25,401 nt of DNA from a virus: IMG/VR virus record IMGVR_UViG_3300049727_000180, positions 1 through 25,401 of that record. One strand, 5' to 3'. Position numbers and translations under genes: made by a program. The notes below the pieces were generated by a model, which saw nothing but the letters and a program-made list of their open reading frames with translations, was not told the DNA's origin and did not search any database. Each line of letters opens with the position of its first letter. The stretch's first letter is position 1. Of this stretch, positions 10,676 through 22,438 are shown one piece after another.

Positions 10676-12294
10676 GCACCGGCTCCCTGGCCAGGATGAA
10701 GGCCAAGAATGCTGCCAAGAAGGCAGCGTGGGACGCGGAGATCGCGGCCGAAGCAGCGGAGCGTGCCAAGAAGTCCGAACGTGCAGCGAAACTGGAACTT
10801 CTTGCGTTGATCGCCGAACGCGCTCGCCGCAAGATGTTGCACTTTACGCTGTTCACCTATCCGGGATACAAGGCCGGGTGGTTTCACCGTCGTCTTGCTT
10901 CGCGCCTTGACCAGTTCCTCGCCGACGTCGAGGCCGGCAAGTCTCCGCGACTGATCATCGAAGCTCCCCCACGCAGCGGCAAGTCCGAGTTGGTCTCGCG
11001 TCGCTTTCCGGCCTTCGCTCTCGGCAAGAATCCCGACCTCTCCATCATCGCGACTTCTTACGCCAGCGATCTCGCGTCCTCCATGAACCGGGACGTGCAG
11101 CGCGTCATCGACAGCGAAGAATACCAGGAGCTGTTCCCTGAGACGTCGCTCAATGGCTCAAATGTGCGCACGGTCGCTGACGGCAGCTACCTGCGCAATT
11201 CTGATATCTTCGAGGTCGTCAAGCACAAGGGCGTCTACAAGAGCGCAGGTGTCGGCGCCGGCATTACCGGCAGAGGCGGCGAGATCCTGCTGGTGGACGA
11301 TCCCCTGAAGGATGCAGCGGAGGCCCACAGTCAGACTGTGCGCGACGGCATCCTCGACTGGTTCAAGTCCACGCTTTACACCCGCTGCGCTCCGGGCGGA
11401 GGCATCCTTATCATCATGACTCGCTGGCACATGGACGACCTCGCCGGCCATCTGCTCGACGAGGCGAAGAAGGACGGGGAGCATTGGGACGAATTCCGTT
11501 TCCCCGCCATCGCCGAGGAAGACGAATACGACGAGAACGGCAATCTGCTGCGCAAGAAGGACGAAGCACTTCACCCTGAGCGGTTTGGTGTTGAGTCCCT
11601 CGCCCGCATCAAGAGGGCCGTCGGGTCACGTGTGTGGGCCGCGCTCTACCAGCAGCGTCCGAGTGCCGCAGAAGGCAACATCTTCAAGCGAGAAAACTGG
11701 AAGAAGATCCGCGCTCCGACGCAGCTGACGCTCATGACGAAGGAAGAGCGCAAGATGTATCTGTGTGAGCTGGGCATCGAACGCATCATTCAGCGCTGGG
11801 ACACGGCCCTGGGTGAGAAGAAGAAGTCTGACTACTCCGCCTGCGTCACACTCGGTGTGGCCAAATCTCGCTACTACGTCCTCAACGTGTGGAAGGCACA
11901 GCTGCCGTTCCCCGACGTGAAGGACAAAGTCAAGACGCTCTTCGACATGTGGAACCCGGTCAAGGTCGTCGTTGAAGGCGGCGGGTCGGCAAGCGGTAAG
12001 GCCACAGTGCAGACCATGAAGCGCGAGACCCGCGTTCCTCTGTTCGAAGTGCCGGCTGTGCTGGACAAGGTGCTCCGTGCTGAGCTGATGTCGCCGAACC
12101 ACGAGAGCGGCCTGGTGTGGATGTTCGAGAACGAAGATTGGACTTCGGACTTCGAGGACCAGTGCGCCAACTTCCCCGCCATCAAGCACGACGACGACGT
12201 CGACGCCTTCGTCGGTGCACTGGAAGAAGCGACTGGAACACCCGGCCCGATGCAGATCACTGACGAACTTCTTGCGATTGTAGGTGCGCTGTGA
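10672..12294 (+). CDS. terL: Terminase large subunit, ATPase/nuclease (540 aa)
   Basis: The DNA-packaging motor. After a basic, Ala/Lys-rich helix (1-50), the ATPase domain has Walker A PPRSGKSE (99-106), Walker B EILLVDD (204-210) and the coupling motif IIMTRWH (247-253). The nuclease domain shows QRWDTALG (Asp377) and HDDDVDAF (506-513) as likely metal ligands of the RNase H-like fold. It hydrolyses ATP to push DNA into the prohead through the portal and cuts the concatemer. The length is normal for the family. Start ATG 10672 overlaps the small subunit stop; its own stop overlaps the portal GTG. Confidence 0.95.
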   Translation: MSTGSLARMKAKNAAKKAAWDAEIAAEAAERAKKSERAAKLELLALIAERARRKMLHFTLFTYPGYKAGWFHRRLASRLDQFLADVEAGKSPRLIIEAPPRSGKSELVSRRFPAFALGKNPDLSIIATSYASDLASSMNRDVQRVIDSEEYQELFPETSLNGSNVRTVADGSYLRNSDIFEVVKHKGVYKSAGVGAGITGRGGEILLVDDPLKDAAEAHSQTVRDGILDWFKSTLYTRCAPGGGILIIMTRWHMDDLAGHLLDEAKKDGEHWDEFRFPAIAEEDEYDENGNLLRKKDEALHPERFGVESLARIKRAVGSRVWAALYQQRPSAAEGNIFKRENWKKIRAPTQLTLMTKEERKMYLCELGIERIIQRWDTALGEKKKSDYSACVTLGVAKSRYYVLNVWKAQLPFPDVKDKVKTLFDMWNPVKVVVEGGGSASGKATVQTMKRETRVPLFEVPAVLDKVLRAELMSPNHESGLVWMFENEDWTSDFEDQCANFPAIKHDDDVDAFVGALEEATGTPGPMQITDELLAIVGAL

Positions 12295-14264
12295 CGATCT
12301 CCTTCCACCCCATCCGCGACTGGCGCAACAACCGTGAGCTCGCTCGTCGCCGCAAGGCGCAGGGCGAGAACGTCGCCATTGCGCACAAGGAATACAAGCG
12401 GCAGATGTTCACCATCAGCGACGAGGCCATGTCCTTCGCGCTGACTTCCGGTGAGGGTCGTCTTGAGCTTCCCCGCCCGAAGTTCGCGCTGACGCCCTAC
12501 GTTCCTCCCATCAAGAACCTGGTCTGCCCCGATGAGCACGTGCTGGCTATGGACGCAGCGGTTGGCCCTCTGCTCGCAGGGCACGGTCGCAACGGGCTCA
12601 TGTCGTATGGTGGGTTCCCGGGCTTTCCCTACCTCACCGAGCTGACGCAGATAACGGAGTATCGTGACCTCTATGAGAAGACCGCCGACGAGATGACCCG
12701 CAAGTGGATCGAGTTCCGCTCGGAGTCCGGAGAGGGCCGCGACGATATCATCAAGAAGATCAATCTGCGATTCAGCCAGCTGCACGTGAAGGAGTGGTTC
12801 AACTGGGCGGCCCGGACCGGGCGCTCAATGGGCCGCTCCCAGATCTTCATGGACTTCGAGGACGACGACGAAGAGCTGGGCACGCCCCTACTCATCCAGA
12901 AAGAGAAGATCAAGAAGGGCAGTCTGAAGCGGCTCAAAGGCATCGAGCCGATCGCCACCTACCCTGGTGACTACAACGCCGACGACCCGCTCGCGCAGGA
13001 CTACTATGAGCCGAGCACGTGGTGGGTCTACTCCAAGAAGGTGCACACCTCCCGGCTGCTGACGTTCATCCCCCATCCCCTGCCCGACCTGCTGAAGCCC
13101 GTCTACAACTTCTCGGGTATCTCGCTCTCCCAGCTGGCCCAGCCGTATGTGGACTACTGGCTGCAGACTCGGGACTCCGTGGGTCGCCTGCTCAAGAACT
13201 TCTCCACCACGGTCTTCAAGACCGACATGACGGGCATCCTGCAGGGGCAGAACTACGAGGGCTTCCTGCGGCGCATGAAGTTCTACACAGCGATGCAGAA
13301 CAACCAGGGCGTCTTCATGTGCGACAAGGCCACGGAGGAGATGAGCAAGGAGTCCACCTCGCTCGCCGGGCTGGACAAGCTGCAGGCGCAGGCGCAGGAG
13401 CACATGGCTTCGGTCGCGAAGACTCCGCTCACCATCCTCTTCGGTCTGTCGCCGGTCGGACTCACCGCGACGGCGGAGACCGACATCACCATCTACAACA
13501 ACCATGTCAACACCAAGCAGGAGTCGGACTTCCGCCGCCCGTTGGAGGCACTGACGAAGATCGTCATGCTCGACCTCTTCGGCGAGATCTACGACGACAT
13601 CACCTTCGACTTCGTCACGCTGGTAAGCGAGACGGAGAAGGAGAAGGCCCTGATGCGGAAGTCGGACGGCGACCGCGACGTCGCGCTGATTACGGCCGGG
13701 GTCGTGACGCCCGAAGAGGTGCGTGCCAAGGTGGCGGCAGATCCCGACAGCGGCTTCGACAACCTCGACGTCGACAAGCCTGAGGGCAAGTTGGTCGCGC
13801 CGCAGCCCGGTGGGACGAAGAAGGGCGGCAAGGCTGGCGGAAATCCCGACGCGGACTTCACCGCTGCGCAGAACAGCAACGACGCAATGCCCGATATGTT
13901 GCGCATTGCGTCTGACATGATGCTGGAGGACGCCCAGCGCGTGGCCATGGACGCAGGGCTGTGGGCAGGAAATCAGCACACCGGCAAGATCGGCGGTGAC
14001 GACGAAGATCCTTCAGTCTCGGCGATGAAGGCAAGCGCGGTTGCGCAGAAGGCCACCAACGTGGCCCACAAAACTGGAACCAGAGCGGCACACGAGCGGG
14101 CTGCCAATGCACACAGCCGCGCGCTTGATGCGCACAAAGCTGCTCTGGCTCCAGCCAACCGTGAGAACAAGGTCGTGCACGAGAACTACATCGACGCTCA
14201 CGAGGCCGCGATCGCGCACCACAAGATGGAATCGTCCCCGTTGCCCGAGGAGGTGGAACTGTGA
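12291..14264 (+). CDS. Portal protein, DUF1073-type, with Ala/His-rich C-terminal extension (657 aa)
   Basis: GTG 12291 overlaps the large terminase stop (GTGA). The first about 500 residues fit the DUF1073 portal family placed after terminase in many myo- and siphophages: GLMSYGGFPGFPYLTELTQI, then a domain with GRSMGRSQIFMDFEDDDEEL, then the stem/crown region SVAKTPLTILFGLSPVGLTA. The dodecameric portal forms the DNA entry vertex and binds terminase. Residues about 577-645 are an added helical tail rich in Ala and His (SAVAQKATNVAHKTGTRAAH, then ERAANAHSRALDAHKAAL), like the modules in two downstream proteins. DUF1073 has also been linked to Acb1-like names in databases; the position here supports portal. 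Confidence 0.85.
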   Translation: MTISFHPIRDWRNNRELARRRKAQGENVAIAHKEYKRQMFTISDEAMSFALTSGEGRLELPRPKFALTPYVPPIKNLVCPDEHVLAMDAAVGPLLAGHGRNGLMSYGGFPGFPYLTELTQITEYRDLYEKTADEMTRKWIEFRSESGEGRDDIIKKINLRFSQLHVKEWFNWAARTGRSMGRSQIFMDFEDDDEELGTPLLIQKEKIKKGSLKRLKGIEPIATYPGDYNADDPLAQDYYEPSTWWVYSKKVHTSRLLTFIPHPLPDLLKPVYNFSGISLSQLAQPYVDYWLQTRDSVGRLLKNFSTTVFKTDMTGILQGQNYEGFLRRMKFYTAMQNNQGVFMCDKATEEMSKESTSLAGLDKLQAQAQEHMASVAKTPLTILFGLSPVGLTATAETDITIYNNHVNTKQESDFRRPLEALTKIVMLDLFGEIYDDITFDFVTLVSETEKEKALMRKSDGDRDVALITAGVVTPEEVRAKVAADPDSGFDNLDVDKPEGKLVAPQPGGTKKGGKAGGNPDADFTAAQNSNDAMPDMLRIASDMMLEDAQRVAMDAGLWAGNQHTGKIGGDDEDPSVSAMKASAVAQKATNVAHKTGTRAAHERAANAHSRALDAHKAALAPANRENKVVHENYIDAHEAAIAHHKMESSPLPEEVEL

Positions 14265-14810: not shown

Positions 14811-15131
14811 ATGAAAGACATTCGAGGCAGCATCACGCAGGACTCCAATCCTGAGGGGATCAACCAGTACACGGGTGCTAGTGGGCTGAAAGCGAAAGCT
14901 TCAGAGAAGACCAAGGTGGCACAGAAGGCCACCCACGAGGCAGAGGCGCGTGGGCGCAATTCGTCAGCGCACATGAAGGCTGAAGATCTTCACCACCAAG
15001 CTGCGTCAGCACACTTGAAAGCAGCAGAGCACGCGCCCACCAAAGAAGACGCAAAAGTTCACGAAAAGGCGGCGGAGCGCCACGAAAAGTTTGCTGACCA
15101 GCACAACCGTGTATACACGAGTAATCTGTGA
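14811..15131 (+). CDS. Ala/His-rich DSNPEGINQY module protein (106 aa)
   Basis: ATG 14811 follows CGGAGGTAACAACG after a 92-bp gap. Residues 10-20 read QDSNPEGINQY, followed by one long helical stretch of Ala, Lys, His and Glu (KASEKTKVAQKATHEAEARG, then QAASAHLKAAEHAPTKEDAK, then VHEKAAERHEKFADQHNRVY). The same motif and tail type occur three times in the 694-aa protease protein. It may decorate or scaffold the head, or carry a targeting or cleavage signal; the sequence does not decide. Its stop overlaps the following GTG (GTGA). Confidence 0.75.
   Translation: MKDIRGSITQDSNPEGINQYTGASGLKAKASEKTKVAQKATHEAEARGRNSSAHMKAEDLHHQAASAHLKAAEHAPTKEDAKVHEKAAERHEKFADQHNRVYTSNL
14841..14870 (+). repeat. 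DSNPEGINQY-coding repeat, copy 1
   Basis: Encodes DSNPEGINQY in the 106-aa protein. Its nucleotides resemble the three copies inside the 694-aa protein, but with several synonymous differences (for example GACTCC and CCTGAG). So the peptide is conserved rather than freshly copied as DNA. Confidence 0.7.
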
Positions 15132-16063
15132 CCATCCAACTCCACGCACCGGGACCTGATCCCGTCAAGCTCGCGCCGGTTCGCCCCAGCGCGGGCGTGC
15201 GTGCGTGGTACGAAAAGCAGCTGACGAAGCTCGTGGGCGAAATGTTCCGGGACGTCGCCAGTGAACTGGTCCCTCTCTACTCCCGCGCCGACCGCGAAGG
15301 CCCGATCACCTGGGCGACCTTCCCCCACGGCGAGATGAACCACAAGCTCAGCAACCTGGAAGAGAAGTGGGTCGAGATCTGCAACGAGCGCGCGCTGAGC
15401 ATCGCCTTCGAGGCCGTCTACATGGCACTCCGCCACCACGACCTGGCCTTCGCCGACGCGCTCAAGAAGGTCGGCATCCAGGTTCCCCCACCGACGGTCC
15501 TGGGCGACCGCACCGCAGTGACGATGGACTCCATCGCGGACACCGAGCACATCTGGCGCAAGTTCGCCGTCAAGTTCGATATGACCGACCGCCTCAAGCA
15601 GACGATCAAGAACCAGCTCAAGGACAACGTCGACCTCATCAGCAACCGGCGCATCAAGGACGGACCGAGCATCCCCAAGAAGGCGTTCGGCGAGATCCGC
15701 AAGATGGCGAAGGAGAGCATCGAGAAGGGCCGGGACGTCGTCGGATTCACCAAGAACCTAGAGGACCGGTTCGGCGTCACGCGCCGCCGCGCCGCGCTCA
15801 TCGCCCGGGACCAGAACAACAAGATGACGGCGCTCTTCCATCGCACCCGCCAGCTGGACTGCGGCATCACCGAGGCGGAGTGGCAGCATACGGGCGCGTC
15901 CCTCCACCCGCGCGAGGAGCACGAGGATTTTGACGGTCAAAGCTACCCGGTTGATGAGGGTCATGACTTTGACGACGGCTTTGGACTGGTGCTGCCAGGT
16001 GAGGCCATCAACTGCGGTTGTCTTTCATCGTCCATCATCCCAGGTTACAGGAGTGTCAAATGA
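15128..16063 (+). CDS. Phage head morphogenesis protein, Mu F/SPP1 gp7-like (311 aa)
   Basis: GTG 15128 overlaps the stop of the module protein. The C-terminal half shows the family pattern: RRRAALIARDQNNKMTALFH, then EAEWQHTGASLHPREEHEDF, and the closing LPGEAINCGCLSSSI (usually PG...NCRC). The N-terminal two-thirds is helical and basic. Members are minor head proteins found near the portal, needed for proper assembly or DNA ejection. The order terminase, portal, Mu F-like is standard. The stop overlaps the next start as ATGA. Confidence 0.85.
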   Translation: MTIQLHAPGPDPVKLAPVRPSAGVRAWYEKQLTKLVGEMFRDVASELVPLYSRADREGPITWATFPHGEMNHKLSNLEEKWVEICNERALSIAFEAVYMALRHHDLAFADALKKVGIQVPPPTVLGDRTAVTMDSIADTEHIWRKFAVKFDMTDRLKQTIKNQLKDNVDLISNRRIKDGPSIPKKAFGEIRKMAKESIEKGRDVVGFTKNLEDRFGVTRRRAALIARDQNNKMTALFHRTRQLDCGITEAEWQHTGASLHPREEHEDFDGQSYPVDEGHDFDDGFGLVLPGEAINCGCLSSSIIPGYRSVK

Positions 16064-16398
16064 GCGACCTTCAAGACAAGATCAAAGCAGACGAGGTGCA
16101 GCTCGCAGCCGATCAGGCTGAACTGGAGTCCATGGAGTCGGTCCAGGTGTCGGGTGAGGCCCCGGCCGACGTAACCGGGCCGCTCGGGTCCCTCGAGCTC
16201 CTGGACATCATCTCCAGCGCGCACAATGCGTCTGCAAAAGCCGCTGCGCAGCCGACCTTTATGAACCTGAACTCGGCTGCACAGTCCTGCATCGCTGCAG
16301 CCTATGCACTTCTGAACGCTGGAATGATGGATGAGGCCGCCATCTTCACCAACGAATCGCAGATGCATGAAAGGGCTGCGCGGTCTGCACCGCAGTAG
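16060..16398 (+). CDS. Ala-rich helical hypothetical protein (112 aa)
   Basis: ATG 16060 follows CAGGAGTGTCAA and overlaps the previous stop (ATGA). An N-terminal coiled-coil-like segment (MSDLQDKIKADEVQLAADQA) precedes a linker rich in Gly, Pro and Val. The C-terminal half is Ala-rich and helical (NSAAQSCIAAAYALLNAGMM, then DEAAIFTNESQMHERAA). Not recognised. It is the last gene before copy B of the control module. Confidence 0.7.
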   Translation: MSDLQDKIKADEVQLAADQAELESMESVQVSGEAPADVTGPLGSLELLDIISSAHNASAKAAAQPTFMNLNSAAQSCIAAAYALLNAGMMDEAAIFTNESQMHERAARSAPQ

Positions 16399-16421
16399 TC
16401 GGATTATTACTGACTGCCGCG

Positions 16422-16593
16422 TTACCGAGGTCCCAAACTCTATATACTCTCGCCCTCTCCCTTTTATATCTGTCTATTTCTACTGTACTACTTTTGAAAT
16501 ATTGGTAATTAAGTAATGGAGTAAATAAAGGAACCTCAAAGTCGCGACCTGTCTTGTTAGTGCAACTTTACCGAGTCCGGTTGACCACCGTAA
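16422..16593 (+). repeat. Intergenic control module, copy B
   Basis: Second copy of the module at 9838-10017. It begins TTACCGAGG, has AACTCTATA, an AT-rich pyrimidine stretch, 8-bp repeats AATTAAGT and AATGGAGT (16507-16522), and the core 16558-16593 (starts TAGTGCAACTTTACCGAG, ends TTGACCACCGTAA). The core lies about 70 nt upstream of ATG 16662. It probably restarts or boosts transcription of the capsid block. Confidence 0.8.
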
Positions 16594-16661
16594 ATGTTTC
16601 CCACCATGCAGCAAGCAGAAGCTCGTCGAACCTCGTCTTACGTATTCACACAGGAGTTCAC

Positions 16662-16895
16662 ATGTCCATCGCCCAGGACGCAGCAGTCAAAGCCTCGGCA
16701 GACGCCGACTCCATCACCGCGAAGGCCAACACCCTCAACACTTCACAGCTGCACTTCGCCGCGTACCAGGCGCACCAGGCTGCGAGCGCCGCGTGGAATG
16801 TCGCCGGAACCTCCACCGCCAAGGCCGCCATCGCACAGACGACTGCCACCAACCACCTCACAACCGCCAACTCGCTCAAGGCAGCGGGCAAATAA
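16662..16895 (+). CDS. Ala-rich small protein (77 aa)
   Basis: ATG 16662 has the site CAGGAGTTCAC. Nearly the whole protein is a low-complexity helix rich in Ala, Thr and Asn (MSIAQDAAVKASADADSITA, then QLHFAAYQAHQAASAAWNVA, then AIAQTTATNHLTTANSLKAA). It resembles the Ala/His-rich modules but lacks DSNPEGINQY. Being first after copy B, it may be made in large amounts; a structural role is inferred. Confidence 0.75.
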   Translation: MSIAQDAAVKASADADSITAKANTLNTSQLHFAAYQAHQAASAAWNVAGTSTAKAAIAQTTATNHLTTANSLKAAGK

Positions 16896-16908
16896 CAAGG
16901 AGAGAATT

Positions 16909-17226
16909 ATGTCCCTTCTGGACAGCGTCAACAAGATGAAGGCCAACGTCGAGAAGGCCACCGACATCATGCAGAACACGGTCGGCAAGCTCCACGCCGA
17001 GTACGAGGCAGAGCTGCCGGCGATCGCGGCCCTGGACCGCAGCGTGGCCTACTTCGGCGTCAACGAGGACGGGACCGCCACGGTGATCGAGTTCGACGCC
17101 ACGACCGGAGCGCCGCGCTTCCGCACCGTGCAGCCGCTGCCTGCTGACGCCACCACCGTCGCTGAGAACGTGGCACCGCTGGAGATCGCGGCGTCCGACG
17201 TCCCCACCGACGCGCCGGCACAGTAG
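16909..17226 (+). CDS. Hypothetical protein (105 aa)
   Basis: ATG 16909 follows AAGGAGAGAATT. It has an N-terminal helix (MSLLDSVNKMKANVEKATDI), a beta-like middle with an acidic surface (VAYFGVNEDGTATVIEFDAT) and an unstructured Ala/Pro/Val tail. Not recognised. It lies between the Ala-rich protein and the protease in the capsid block. Confidence 0.75.
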   Translation: MSLLDSVNKMKANVEKATDIMQNTVGKLHAEYEAELPAIAALDRSVAYFGVNEDGTATVIEFDATTGAPRFRTVQPLPADATTVAENVAPLEIAASDVPTDAPAQ

Positions 17227-17268
17227 CGTGTACAGACCCGGCCATCACGTCACCGAAAGGGCAGAACG

Positions 17269-19353
17269 ATGAGCATCACCCTGGCACTCGACAAGCAGTC
17301 CGCCCGCCGGATCGACGCCAATGGCTACCTGCACGTCGAGCCCAACCCGATCAGCAAGGCCACGGTCAATCCGTACAAGGGTTCGGAGATCCCGGGCTGC
17401 GAGCAGCTGGGTCTTGACCCCAACAAGGTCTACTACCTGCTGCGCGATCCGAAGGAACTGGAGAAGGCCGCCCCGACATTCAACAACCTCCCCATCCTGA
17501 GCAAGCACATCCCGGTCAGCAGTTTCGACATGGACAAGCCGGAAGTCAAGGCGCTCTACGTCGGCTCGACCGGGACGGACGCGGAGTTCGACGGCACCTA
17601 CCTCAACAACACACTGGTCCTGCATGCCAAGTCCGCCATCGACGACATCCAGGCCAGGAAGAAGCACGAGCTGTCCTGCGCATATCGCTACCAGCCCGAC
17701 ATGACGCCCGGCACCTTCGAGGGGCAGCATTACGACGGCATCATGCGTGACATTCAGGGCAACCACGTGGCGCTGGTCACGGAAGGGCGGGCAGGGCACG
17801 ACGTTAAGGTCATGGATTCCAAGAATGGATGTGCAAATGTGGTCGACTACCGGAAGGTCAGCACCGCGCTGGGTTTGGGCGCGACCGAAAAGGTCCGCGC
17901 CGTGCTGTTCGGAATTGACAGCAACCCAGAGGGTATCAGCCAGTACTCGGGCGGTGGCCATGCTGAGAAGGCTGCCGAGCATGCGGTAAAGGCCAAGGAA
18001 GCTGCAGCGCCTACTGTGAATAACCGTCGCGAAGCTGGGGCCAACTATCGTGGGTCTGTCAACGCCCAGAGCGACGAGGGTTACAACACCTCAGTCAGTG
18101 GCAGCGTCACCTCGAAGAGGGCCATGAAAGAGGGCACTACTGCCAAGCATGATCTGGCGGCGAGGGTTCACACGAGAGCAGCAAAGGAACATGAGTCACT
18201 TGGCAATAGGGAAGCGGCCGCACACCACTTGGCAGCAGCCAAGGAGCATCGCCTGGCCTCAGCCGAGATCGCCAAAGGAAAAGACGCGGCTATGGACGGC
18301 AGCATCACGAAGGAAGTGCACGGCTCGGACTACGAGACCGCAGAAGCAGCGGCCAAGTCCGCCGGCACGCTCGCCGGGATGCAGCCCACGCCCGAGAACC
18401 GCAAGCAGGCGGCGAGGCTCTCCCGCGAGGCCGCGCGCCTCCACCGCAGCGCCGGGTTCGCCAAGCAGGCGAAGTACTGGGACGAGGTCGCCGCTGAGTT
18501 CGAGAAGCCTGCCGGTGGCGCGAAAGACAGCAACCCGGAGGGGATCAACCAGTACAACAGCGCGGCCGCAGCAGCTAAGAGCGCGTCCAACAAGGCCGCC
18601 AAACTTTCGTCCACGACGAGCGAGCACGCCAAAGCGGCAGCGGCACACACAAAGGCCGCAGAAGCACATCGCAACGCCGCAGAAAAAGCCAAAGCAACGG
18701 GGAACAATTTTCCAGTGCGGGGCCATGAGGAAAAGGCAGCCTACCACGAGAAAGCCGCTGAGCTTGAGACTCGGCGGTCGGGCGGAGCGAAGGACAGCAA
18801 CCCGGAGGGGATCAACCAGTATTCTAGTGCTGCGGGGAAAGCACGTGAAGCTACAAAGAACGCGGCAAAGCTGGAGAAAGCAAACGCGCCACGGAAGGAT
18901 ATTCAAAATGCGCATCTAAAAGCGTGGACAGAACACACACGTGCCGCCAAGGTCGCGCCAACCGAAGAAAAGAAAGCTGTGCACACAGCCAAGGCAAGTG
19001 AGCATAATTCTGGCTATATCAAGTTCGGGAAGCCTGTGCACACGTCGCTGGGTCAAATTGCGCCATGGCACGATTCAATGCCAAAAGACCTTTCTTGTCA
19101 GGATTCGATCACCAAACGCGACGACGTCAGCGCCAAGTCCGGTGAGCGCGAGTACGGCGATGTGCAGTTCGCCGACCCCAAGAACAACAAATATCCTCTG
19201 GACACGCCCGAGCACGTGAGAGCTGCAGCCTCCTACTTCGGGATGACCAAGAACAGAAGTCAGTACGGGAAGGAGGACCAGACGAAGATCGACAAGCGCA
19301 TCAGCGCCGCAGAGCGGAAGTTCAAGCTCGGCAAGTTTGCCGAGGGTAAGTAA
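17269..19353 (+). CDS. DUF2213-type prohead protease with three DSNPEGINQY modules and a DUF6582-like C-terminus (694 aa)
   Basis: Residues 1-190 match the DUF2213 phage protease-like family: LSKHIPVSSFD (78-88), HELSCAYRYQPD (133-144) and GNHVALVTEGRAG (164-176). By analogy with prohead proteases, His80, Ser136 and His166 may form the active site. Residues about 215-600 hold three Ala/His-rich helical modules headed by DSNPEGI(N/S)QY (starts at residues 217, 420 and 509). The end (about 615-690, with KNNKYPLDTPEHVRAAASYF and RISAAERKFKLG) resembles DUF6582. The usual C-terminal part of DUF2213 proteins lies instead in the next gene. The protein may process the head and carry structural modules. 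Start ATG 17269, site AAAGGGCAGAACG. Confidence 0.8.
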   Translation: MSITLALDKQSARRIDANGYLHVEPNPISKATVNPYKGSEIPGCEQLGLDPNKVYYLLRDPKELEKAAPTFNNLPILSKHIPVSSFDMDKPEVKALYVGSTGTDAEFDGTYLNNTLVLHAKSAIDDIQARKKHELSCAYRYQPDMTPGTFEGQHYDGIMRDIQGNHVALVTEGRAGHDVKVMDSKNGCANVVDYRKVSTALGLGATEKVRAVLFGIDSNPEGISQYSGGGHAEKAAEHAVKAKEAAAPTVNNRREAGANYRGSVNAQSDEGYNTSVSGSVTSKRAMKEGTTAKHDLAARVHTRAAKEHESLGNREAAAHHLAAAKEHRLASAEIAKGKDAAMDGSITKEVHGSDYETAEAAAKSAGTLAGMQPTPENRKQAARLSREAARLHRSAGFAKQAKYWDEVAAEFEKPAGGAKDSNPEGINQYNSAAAAAKSASNKAAKLSSTTSEHAKAAAAHTKAAEAHRNAAEKAKATGNNFPVRGHEEKAAYHEKAAELETRRSGGAKDSNPEGINQYSSAAGKAREATKNAAKLEKANAPRKDIQNAHLKAWTEHTRAAKVAPTEEKKAVHTAKASEHNSGYIKFGKPVHTSLGQIAPWHDSMPKDLSCQDSITKRDDVSAKSGEREYGDVQFADPKNNKYPLDTPEHVRAAASYFGMTKNRSQYGKEDQTKIDKRISAAERKFKLGKFAEGK
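17917..17946 (+). repeat. DSNPEGISQY-coding repeat, copy 2
   Basis: Encodes DSNPEGISQY at residues 217-226 of the protease protein, the only copy with Ser in place of Asn at position 8. It follows directly after the DUF2213 core. Confidence 0.7.
18526..18555 (+). repeat. DSNPEGINQY-coding repeat, copy 3
   Basis: Encodes DSNPEGINQY at residues 420-429. Its DNA is almost identical to copy 4 (both GACAGCAACCCGGAGGGGAT onwards), suggesting internal duplication within the gene. Confidence 0.75.
18793..18822 (+). repeat. DSNPEGINQY-coding repeat, copy 4
   Basis: Encodes DSNPEGINQY at residues 509-518, 267 bp after copy 3, followed by an Ala/Lys helical stretch (KAREATKNAAKLEKANAPRK). Confidence 0.75.
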
Positions 19354-19375
19354 TCCCTTTCAACAAGGAGCCCAA

Positions 19376-20353
19376 ATGGGCAAGAAAATGATCACCCTCA
19401 CCCCCCAGGGGCACCGCGTCATGGGTGCCCTCGCCACCTACATCGTGCCGAAACTGGCCGCTGACCAGTCCCTCCAGAGCGTCGAGCTCGAGGCGCTGTG
19501 CAAGTCCATCTCCCCTGGCCGCTACGACCGCCAGATAGACGGTATCGTCGGCACCGTCAAGGAGCGCTTCGGTTCCCGCATCGCCCAGGACGAGTCCTTC
19601 GCGGACCTCCGCAAGGTGCTCAATGCCCTGATGCCATCCACCCTCGCCATGGACAAGAAGAAGGAAGAGGAGGCCGAGGACGAGGACGGAGAGAACGAGG
19701 ACGCGCTCCCCGAGGCGTTCAAGAAGAATGCCAAGAAGATGAAGAAGAAGGCCGCCGAAGACGAGGCGGAAGACGAGGACGAGGACGAGGACGACGAGGA
19801 CGACGAGGACGACGAGGACGAGGACGAGGACGAGGACAAGAAGGCCAAGGACAAGAAGGCCGCTGACGCCAAGAAGGCGAGGGACAAGAAGGCGAGGGAC
19901 AAGAAGGCGAAGGACAAGAAGGTCCCCGGCAACGAAGAAGACCTCGAAGGTCGCGAAGGCGACTTCGATGAGGATGACGAAGAGGGCGAGCGCAACGAAG
20001 CCAAGGACAAGAAGGCCAAGCGTGCGCTCGACTCCGCCATGGACTCCGCCCGCACCGAGGGTGCGGACCTGGCCGTGCGTCGCCTCGCCGCCCGCTATGA
20101 AGCGGCCGAGATCGTGAAGCCCATCGTCGGTAAGGTCAACGTCTTCGCCGCCGACTCCGCCGCCTCCATCTACAAGATGGCCCTCGACGCCAAGGGCGCG
20201 GACCTCGCTGGCGTGCCCAAGGTCGCCTACAAGGCGGTCCTCCAGACCCTTCTCAAGAGCGAGAAGACCACCCCCAAGGCCAAGTTCGCGCAGGATGCGG
20301 CCGTCACCAAGTCCCTGCTCGAGGAGTTCCCCAAGCTCCCCGGCCTGGCTTAA
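19376..20353 (+). CDS. DUF2213-associated C-terminal module with acidic/lysine low-complexity tract (325 aa)
   Basis: ATG 19376 has the site AAGGAGCCCAA. Residues 1-90 are globular (ITLTPQGHRVMGALATYIVP). Residues 94-215 alternate Asp/Glu-only runs (136-154) with KKARDKKARDKKAKDKK (166-182). Residues 215-300 (AARYEAAEIVKPIVGKVNVF, then DSAASIYKMALDAKGADLAG, then PKVAYKAVL) resemble the C-terminal region that follows the DUF2213 domain in single-chain relatives, as I recall them. So the protease and this part appear separated into two genes here. It may act as an internal scaffold for the prohead; inference. Confidence 0.75.
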   Translation: MGKKMITLTPQGHRVMGALATYIVPKLAADQSLQSVELEALCKSISPGRYDRQIDGIVGTVKERFGSRIAQDESFADLRKVLNALMPSTLAMDKKKEEEAEDEDGENEDALPEAFKKNAKKMKKKAAEDEAEDEDEDEDDEDDEDDEDEDEDEDKKAKDKKAADAKKARDKKARDKKAKDKKVPGNEEDLEGREGDFDEDDEEGERNEAKDKKAKRALDSAMDSARTEGADLAVRRLAARYEAAEIVKPIVGKVNVFAADSAASIYKMALDAKGADLAGVPKVAYKAVLQTLLKSEKTTPKAKFAQDAAVTKSLLEEFPKLPGLA

Positions 20354-21367: not shown

Positions 21368-22438
21368 ATGAAGAAGTTCACTGACAAGACCCAACTCCTC
21401 GCCGAGCGCTACGGCATCGGCATGGACAGCGGCGACCACGCCATCATCCCCTGCGTCGACACCCACTCCCCCATCGGGATGAGCTTCGACCAGGCCATTC
21501 AGATGGCCATGGACGCTCCCACCAACCTGCTCCAGTCCGGGCTCGTGACCGCCAGCAATGCCGGCATCCCGAATTACCTGAGCAACTACCTGGACCCGGA
21601 GATCGTGCGGGTGCTCACCACCCCGATGAAGGCCGTGGACATCTTCGGCGAAGTCAAGAAGGGCGACTGGCTGATGGATTCCGCGCAGTTCCCCATCATC
21701 GAGTCCACCGGCGAAGTGTCGTCCTACGGTGACGACAACGACAACGGGCTGGTCGGCGCCAACGCCAACTGGGTTCCTCGCCAGTCGTACGCCTACCAGA
21801 CCTTCACCCGCTGGGGCGACAAGGAACTGGCCAAGGCCGGTCTCGCGAAGATCGACTGGGCCGCCGAGCAGAACGTCTCCTCCGCGCTGATCATGAACAC
21901 CTTCCAGAACCGGACGTACTTCTTCGGTGTCGCCGGCATCTCCAACTACGGTCTGCTGAACGACCCCGCGCTGCTGCCCTCCCTCACCCCGCTCAACGGT
22001 GTGTGGAAGTCCGCGACCGGCGTCCAGATCGTGGCCGACATCCAGAACCTGTTTGTCACCCTGCAGACTCAGCTGAACGGCAACCTGGAAATGGAGGATG
22101 AGCTGATCCTGGCCCTGCCCTCCACCCTGCAGCCCTACCTGCTGACCCCGATGCAGAACGTCTACGGCACCCCGTCCGTCAAGGCTTACCTCAAGGAGGC
22201 CTTCCCCAAGATGGAGTTCAAGACCGCGCAGCAGTACGTCACCGCGTCGGGCAACCTCGTGCAGCTCATCGCTCCCAAGGTCCAGGGCCAGAAGACCGGC
22301 TTCTGCGCCTTCACCGAGAAGCTGCGCGCGCACGCCATCGTCCGCAAGACCTCCAGCACCCACCAGAAGAAGTCCGGCGGAACCTGGGGCACCATCATCA
22401 AGATCGCCGCTGCCATCAGCAGTCTTCTCGGAGCCTAA
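21368..22438 (+). CDS. Major capsid protein, DUF2184-type (356 aa)
   Basis: ATG 21368, site AAGGAGCCAGAACC. Typical family segments: PNYLSNYLDPEIVRVLTTPM, AVDIFGEVKKGDW, QSYAYQTFTRWGDKELAKAG, and the C-terminal HQKKSGGTWGTIIKIAAAIS. This is an HK97-fold shell protein of the kind found with DUF2213 and Gp24-like partners. It would be the most abundant virion protein. Its codon use is strongly biased to C-ending codons, more than in the early arm. No cleavage site is evident. Confidence 0.88.
   Translation: MKKFTDKTQLLAERYGIGMDSGDHAIIPCVDTHSPIGMSFDQAIQMAMDAPTNLLQSGLVTASNAGIPNYLSNYLDPEIVRVLTTPMKAVDIFGEVKKGDWLMDSAQFPIIESTGEVSSYGDDNDNGLVGANANWVPRQSYAYQTFTRWGDKELAKAGLAKIDWAAEQNVSSALIMNTFQNRTYFFGVAGISNYGLLNDPALLPSLTPLNGVWKSATGVQIVADIQNLFVTLQTQLNGNLEMEDELILALPSTLQPYLLTPMQNVYGTPSVKAYLKEAFPKMEFKTAQQYVTASGNLVQLIAPKVQGQKTGFCAFTEKLRAHAIVRKTSSTHQKKSGGTWGTIIKIAAAISSLLGA

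Follow-up and report, generated by a model that had tools for sequence, protein, structure and literature searches.

A recurrent header peptide probably marks releasable capsid-internal modules encoded in phage head gene clusters

Introduction

The internal proteins of phage T4 and its Alt protein carry an N-terminal capsid targeting sequence that is cut by gp21. This capsid targeting system is cited in PMC9024508 and PMC10052503, and in HK97 the cleavage site is Lys103 (PMC10275583). Here we analysed a 25.4-kb stretch of virus DNA (IMG/VR record IMGVR_UViG_3300049727_000180, positions 1 to 25,401; the whole stretch is called the window), in which the peptide DSNPEGI(N/S)QY recurs within a head gene cluster encoding a terminase, a portal protein, a 106-aa (amino acid) protein, a MuF-like protein, small proteins, a DUF2213 prohead protease, a scaffold-like protein and minor and major capsid proteins. 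The peptide is probably the header of capsid-internal cargo modules, which would be freed by a cut directly in front of it during head maturation.

Results

Four copies of DSNPEGI(N/S)QY were found at 14841, 17917, 18526 and 18793, all on the + strand, where 100 shuffles gave 0 expected. As the original prediction had claimed, one copy lies in the open reading frame (ORF) of the 106-aa protein (14811–15131) and three lie in that of the 694-aa DUF2213 protease protein (17269–19353). Copies 3 and 4 are a single base apart across 10 codons, copies 1 and 2 show synonymous differences, both as described before, and copy 2 reads GISQY. The portal tail had been taken as free of the motif, which proved wrong: its residues 552–569, AMDAGLWAGNQHTGKIGG, form a diverged header immediately ahead of the Ala/His helices, and this header recurs in three other contigs (L008, L033 and L156). 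The headed modules of the window and their carriers are listed below (↓, candidate cut).

12291..14264, +: portal protein, 657 aa, with a cargo-like C-terminal tail (Phage_portal_3 1.9e-78, phrog_146)
13944..13997, +: diverged fifth header AMD↓AGLWAGNQHTGKIGG, portal-tail residues 552–569 (same peptide in L008, L033, L156)
14019..14225, +: Ala/His-rich helical portal tail (sequence; hairpin model marginal)
14811..15131, +: stand-alone 106-aa module with leader MKDIRGSITQD, header and Ala/His hairpin (sequence, alignment, AlphaFold)
14841..14870, +: header copy 1, D↓SNPEGINQY (motif scan)
16662..16895, +: 77-aa protein, MSIAQD↓AAV followed by an Ala/His hairpin, without header core (hairpin model E 3.4e-4; AQD↓A site)
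17269..19353, +: 694-aa protein with DUF2213 prohead protease (residues 13–184), headed hairpin modules and DUF6582 (612–685) (PF09979 1.3e-47, PF20223 4.4e-25, phrog_2229 head maturation protease)
17917..17946, +: header copy 2, GID↓SNPEGISQYSGGG, motif residues 217–226 (low-confidence linker in the structure model)
18106..18276, +: predicted helical hairpin, residues 280–336 (AlphaFold, hairpin model)
18526..18555, +: header copy 3, AKD↓SNPEGINQY, motif residues 420–429 (motif scan, structure model)
18589..18777, +: predicted helical hairpin, residues 441–503 (AlphaFold, hairpin model)
18793..18822, +: header copy 4, AKD↓SNPEGINQY, motif residues 509–518 (motif scan, structure model)
18823..19029, +: predicted helical hairpin behind copy 4 that runs to residue 587 (AlphaFold, hairpin model)

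The motif recurs in many other phages, an outcome in favour of the original prediction, which absence from related phages would have refuted. Scans of IMG/VR and of whole contigs gave 168 non-redundant header copies in ~50 contigs, and NPEGINQY alone occurred in 39 IMG/VR stretches. The fifth residue is free in the relaxed pattern, NPEGxNQYTG, and a second, equally common spelling, G(D/E)xxGHPFRGNQYT, aligns with it. Both spellings are in use in some genomes: L034 has NPEGINQYTGG on the portal and HPFRGNQYT behind the MuF domain, and G001 has SITLD↓SNPEGINQYTG and SITLD↓GDLPGHNFRGNQW at different places. By whole-contig search and translation, G032 has 25 copies, G047 has 10 and G042 has 9, and the reversed-pattern control gave 0 matches in all 50 contigs. 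A chance or low-complexity origin of the motif was ruled out by the shuffles, the reversed-pattern controls, the codon data and the conserved alignment positions described below.

Among cultured phages, Xanthomonas phage Rb1 alone was found to carry the header, as VALD↓GDFSGHPFRGNQ; its gene bears the annotation 'internal head protein', and an Ala/His-rich stretch follows the header. Searches by tblastn with the short peptides against phages and plasmids returned almost nothing, which is weak evidence of absence. A prophage origin was rejected, the window being itself a complete virus record of 25,401 bases in IMG/VR numbering and a similar pattern being met at only 2 places in 257 Gb of bacterial contigs, no more than the estimated chance number. 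The header peptides were absent from the open-access literature searched, a scope that leaves most subscription journals outside.

Several variants of the header arrangement were observed in passing. In contig IMGVR_UViG_3300045974_000513 (L134–L135, ~23.5–45.8 kb), 25 headers lie in huge ORFs of up to 2,651 codons, which apparently are chained headed modules including ADP-ribosyltransferase and MuF. All four copies of G023 (L046, L052) read NPEGCNQY with a second Cys soon after (TGPxC or REC), and the paired Cys suggests a genome-specific disulfide or metal variant. The portal of Pseudomonas phage Orisa03 (L132:2270–4381) has a header-like FDENKHPRSDDGKFGS in its tail ahead of a C-terminal extension, and this peptide is possibly a third form of the tag.

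The header is conserved as a peptide. In five multi-copy genomes, agreement among copies was 0.78–0.91 for motif residues vs 0.08–0.16 for upstream residues, and different codons stood behind 0.33–0.53 of the agreeing motif residues. Codons thus vary and residues remain constant, in line with the earlier remark that the peptide is being kept, and selection, judged from this codon pattern, is on the peptide rather than on the DNA. Conservation among the H-class (HPFRGNQYT) copies extends to positions outside the search patterns, with G at −1 (113/114), D/E at −4 (112/113) and G at −5 (105/113).

The Ala/His helices that had been reported after the motif copies are present, and they hold conserved positions rather than the mere low complexity that would have refuted the original prediction. 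When the 106-aa protein was aligned with stand-alone and protease-embedded modules of several contigs, H61, A64, H68 and A71 were kept in all rows and H84 and A88 in at least 90% of them, and motif positions D11, N13, P14, G16, N18, Q19 and Y20 were invariant in the same alignment. On this alignment, the Ala/His modules are homologous beyond their shared Ala-richness. A hidden Markov model (HMM) restricted to the hairpin and trained on these modules matched the 694-aa protein in five domains, and it also matched the 77-aa protein (E 3.4e-4), which was outside the training set. The portal tail matched only marginally, its best domain having E 0.07; among shuffled sequences the best full-sequence E was 0.39. 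In the AlphaFold model of the 106-aa protein, residues 1–50 including the motif had a predicted local distance difference test score (pLDDT) below 50, and helices 51–73 and 78–105 were mostly at ~85. The model of the 694-aa protein likewise showed hairpins of moderate confidence, with the motifs in low-confidence stretches between them. A fold search with the hairpin gave only generic helix bundles (best match E 1.3).

The recognised carriers of the header are portal, MuF and DUF2213/maturation-protease proteins, and it also stands near the N-terminus of small stand-alone proteins (residue 3–17). No Pfam domain covered a header in the examples checked. The recognised modules include ADP-ribosyltransferase (ART), NUDIX, topoisomerase IB, Zeta toxin, cysteine dioxygenase (CDO) and ParB-like domains. 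The association of the motif with Ala/His helices in the original prediction was consequently too narrow, and restriction to such helices was rejected, because very different domains follow the header in other contigs. The window's own modules are Ala/His hairpins with no recognised enzyme domain, and related loci have multidomain effectors fused to portal or MuF.

The residue directly before the header is genome-specific. Over 113 H-class copies, identity at residue −6 was 0.77 within vs 0.19 between genomes (permutation p 0.003), a wider gap than at any other position, and identity at residue −7 was 0.19 within vs 0.08 between genomes. Residue −6 is K in 25/25 copies of G032 and 9/9 of G042, L in 10/10 of G047 and 8/8 of G049, and Arg in G035. 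S78-like/phrog_21715 proteases were found in G032, G035, G036, G038 and G044, where the preceding residue is K/R, and phrog_328 in G047, G049, G024, G020 and G026, of which G047 and G049 have L. DUF2213 was detected in 14 of the 50 contigs first searched and in 4 others, and in the window this protease sits in the same head cluster as the headed modules (694-aa protein, PF09979 1.3e-47). Among N-class copies, Asp at −2 was seen in all strong-DUF2213 contigs examined (n = 11) and in 0/10 long contigs without DUF2213; the association of Asp with DUF2213 in a 9-genome table gave a Fisher p of 1e-5, which is indicative only, since genomes sharing a protease type are related and Fisher values overstate their independence. 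The preceding residue thus appears to track the type of prohead protease, being Asp with DUF2213, Lys/Arg with S78-like proteases and mostly Leu with phrog_328, and this evidence is strong but indirect.

Matching sites were found in the head proteins themselves. In more than 10 DUF2213-type phages, the capsid protein has a site of A(M/Q/F)D↓(A/S) type, which in one of them reads LMD↓A, where its conserved core begins, at the presumed propeptide junction. The cryo-EM capsid models of E217 (PMC10329688) and Pa193 (PMC11042391) both start at residue 66, and residues 62–65 of the capsid protein of the related phage 14-1 read AMDS. Across four distant phages, A(M/Q)D(S/A/G) occurred 20 times among the 7,763 residues of head genes, against 5 times among 50,073 other residues (~26-fold, p 1e-13), 3 of the 20 head-gene sites being the capsid sites from which the pattern was derived. 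In the window, the same pattern in its strict form matched 7 times in head proteins (0.39 expected) and 0 times in others. Comparable AMD↓S sites lie near the N-terminus of the portals of 14-1 (72), AsaM-56 (74) and RCIP0114 (63), which is consistent with the first 93 residues missing from the Pa193 portal (PMC11042391). For the S78 type, the capsid Lys of G036 aligned with HK97 Lys103, and that of G044 did likewise by inspection; of 30 contigs, no more than 2 gave a capsid protein that passed the PF05065 cut-off, so that the Lys comparison rests on two, and the capsid proteins of the remaining K genomes were not found in this search. The other head features of the window are listed below.

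12552..12554, +: candidate portal N-terminal maturation site, Asp88 of LAMD↓AAVG (fits A(M/Q)D(S/A/G); compare the portals of 14-1, AsaM-56 and RCIP0114)
15128..16063, +: MuF-like head morphogenesis protein (PF04233, phrog_324)
18295..18297, +: candidate maturation site, Asp343 of AAMD↓GSIT (site pattern)
19376..20353, +: scaffold-like protein with sites AMD↓S (Asp223) and AQD↓A (Asp307) (C-terminal part of phrog_2229, 1.6e-22)
21368..22438, +: major capsid protein with QMAMD↓APTN (Asp49) at the predicted propeptide junction (phrog_264; E217/Pa193 relatives)

Three side observations concern these genes. At 17269–20353 of the window, protease and scaffold are separate ORFs and the protease has module insertions; in relatives one phrog_2229 protein spans both. 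The DUF6582 domain at the protease C-terminus (19099–19323) is preceded by SCQD↓S, a further candidate maturation site. The portal of Burkholderia phage BcepNY3 (L128:10499–12586) has a C-terminal domain that reads as NUDIX-like right after GAQD↓AAM, a predicted DUF2213 site without the header core.

Discussion

The original prediction had named three possible roles: docking tag, cut site for the adjacent protease, and internal head-protein module. A combination is favoured here, namely an internal-head header with a probable prohead-protease site directly ahead, and the pure docking tag is retained as a rival. Each module, fused to a carrier (portal, MuF or protease) or separately encoded in the head cluster, would open with a short disordered header of the form [S/A/D/E]NPEGxNQYTGG or G(D/E)xxGHPFRGNQYTxG. 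The residue directly ahead would occupy P1 for the prohead protease that the phage itself encodes: Asp with DUF2213, as in the window, Lys/Arg with S78/HK97-like proteases and Leu in some phrog_328 genomes. The protease would cut before the header during maturation, as with the capsid-protein propeptide and the scaffold, and the module would be released within the head, the header becoming its new N-terminus. Once released, the modules, which are Ala/His hairpins in the window and ADP-ribosyltransferase, NUDIX, topoisomerase or other domains in different phages, would remain with the DNA and presumably be co-ejected. Freeing of modules by such a cut would explain the internal as well as N-terminal positions, the restriction to head carriers and the protease-linked residue. 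What can be read from the sequences is the recurrence, the conserved core, its conservation as a peptide, the head carriers, the protease-matched residue and the capsid and scaffold sites; the cut, the virion location, ejection and any role of the core after the cut are inferred. GGAKDSNPEGINQY is a predicted candidate substrate peptide of the DUF2213 protease.

Several points weigh against this explanation. A cut site alone gives no reason for the conservation of NPEGxNQYTG / HPFRGNQYT across unrelated proteases, although a sorting, retention or ejection role of the new N-terminus is possible. The window's header upstreams (TQD, GID, AKD and AKD) fit only the relaxed xxD↓S and not the strict A(M/Q)D. 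Rb1 has D before its header but no DUF2213 match; G002, G012 and G017, with weak DUF2213 matches only, have no Asp at −2; and many N-class contigs without DUF2213 have S/A/N upstream with no evident P1 rule. One S occurs among the preceding residues of G038, the phrog_328 genomes are mixed (L, F/L, A), and the stand-alone proteins of G043 start with MGDxxGHPFRG, for which a protease is not needed. The protease/residue table was compiled by hand, and the relatedness of its genomes also counts here. Finally, the model of the 694-aa protein is poor (pLDDT 45) and inadequate for the protease domain.

The main rival is a capsid-targeting or docking tag like the T4 capsid targeting sequence or the P1 DarB signal, which would bind scaffold, portal or capsid protein and recruit modules into the prohead with no cleavage at the tag. 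It is unlikely but has to be taken seriously: the header stands near the N-terminus (residue 3–17) in stand-alone proteins, its core is kept across phages with unrelated proteases, and residues 1–30 of P1 DarB are enough to load a foreign protein (PMC9024508). However, such a tag would be redundant inside portal, MuF and protease fusions, whose carrier is already head-bound, and it predicts no preceding residue that tracks the protease.

We regard as improbable a functionless flexible inter-domain linker whose sequence was copied by module shuffling. The domain-boundary position, the Gly-rich downstream stretch, the predicted disorder and the near-identical DNA of window copies 3 and 4 agree with a linker, but the core is invariant, different codons underlying 0.31–0.53 of its identical residues, while the upstream flanks reach an identity of just 0.08–0.19, and the header is also found on stand-alone proteins, where a linker is superfluous.

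Very improbable, in our judgement, is cleavage of the header region by a protease that belongs to the host or acts on itself, or a contact with the tail/portal ejection machinery, instead of a prohead-protease boundary. The core is common while phage proteases differ, and the modules resemble injected effectors; yet the residue ahead goes with the protease type of each phage and agrees with its capsid cleavage residue. A translated DNA-level element (recombination or regulatory word) is scarcely credible in spite of the 25 copies within ~22 kb of G032, since the DNA word was rejected by codon variation (G032 alone uses four Gly codons at −1), the copies are in frame and the reversed-pattern control was 0.

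Beyond the release of modules in front of the header, a broader reading is put forward tentatively, at somewhat less than even chances: a cross-family head-cargo code, in which the NPEGxNQYT / GHPFRGNQYT core would mark, release and retain or eject cargo with at least three unrelated prohead proteases, only the preceding residue being adapted, and in which some genomes would encode at least 20 headed modules as polyproteins. If the header acts as proposed, it would give a sequence handle for capsid-internal, probably injected proteins of uncultivated phages, mostly of unassigned function, and it would predict where the DUF2213 proteases, listed in Pfam merely as an uncharacterised family, cut their substrates. 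It would also bear on how phages select the proteins that travel within the head, and it points to a modular tag with which foreign cargo could be loaded into phage heads.

By analogy, the header would work like the prohead-protease-processed internal head proteins of T4 and P1. As in T4, a short N-terminal leader precedes the cut site (here a predicted one), cargo would be kept in the head and ejected, and the MxxxxGSITxD leader is of similar length. Unlike in T4, where the tag is removed with the leader by a cut after Glu, the core here lies downstream of the site, with many internal repeats and several protease families; a T4-type leader with a cut after (L/I)xE was not found, the upstream residue being Asp in the window and D/K/R/L or another elsewhere. 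P1 DarB likewise belongs to capsid-internal anti-restriction proteins with an N-terminal signal (PMC9024508), and the header gene of Rb1 lies near DarA-N-like and helicase-like genes, but P1 has its signal only once, at the N-terminus. HK97 gp4 (S78) and SPN3US gp245 are similar in that one protease with a fixed P1 residue (Lys103 in HK97; after Glu in SPN3US) processes head proteins, although the accessible parts of their accounts report no recurring header downstream of the sites. The polyvalent proteins and MuF/portal-effector fusions (PMC5512222) share the carriers and, in the accessible part of that paper, many cargo domains (MuF, portal, ART, ParB) with the present modules; a header peptide and inter-module protease sites, which that part does not describe, would be what sets these modules apart.

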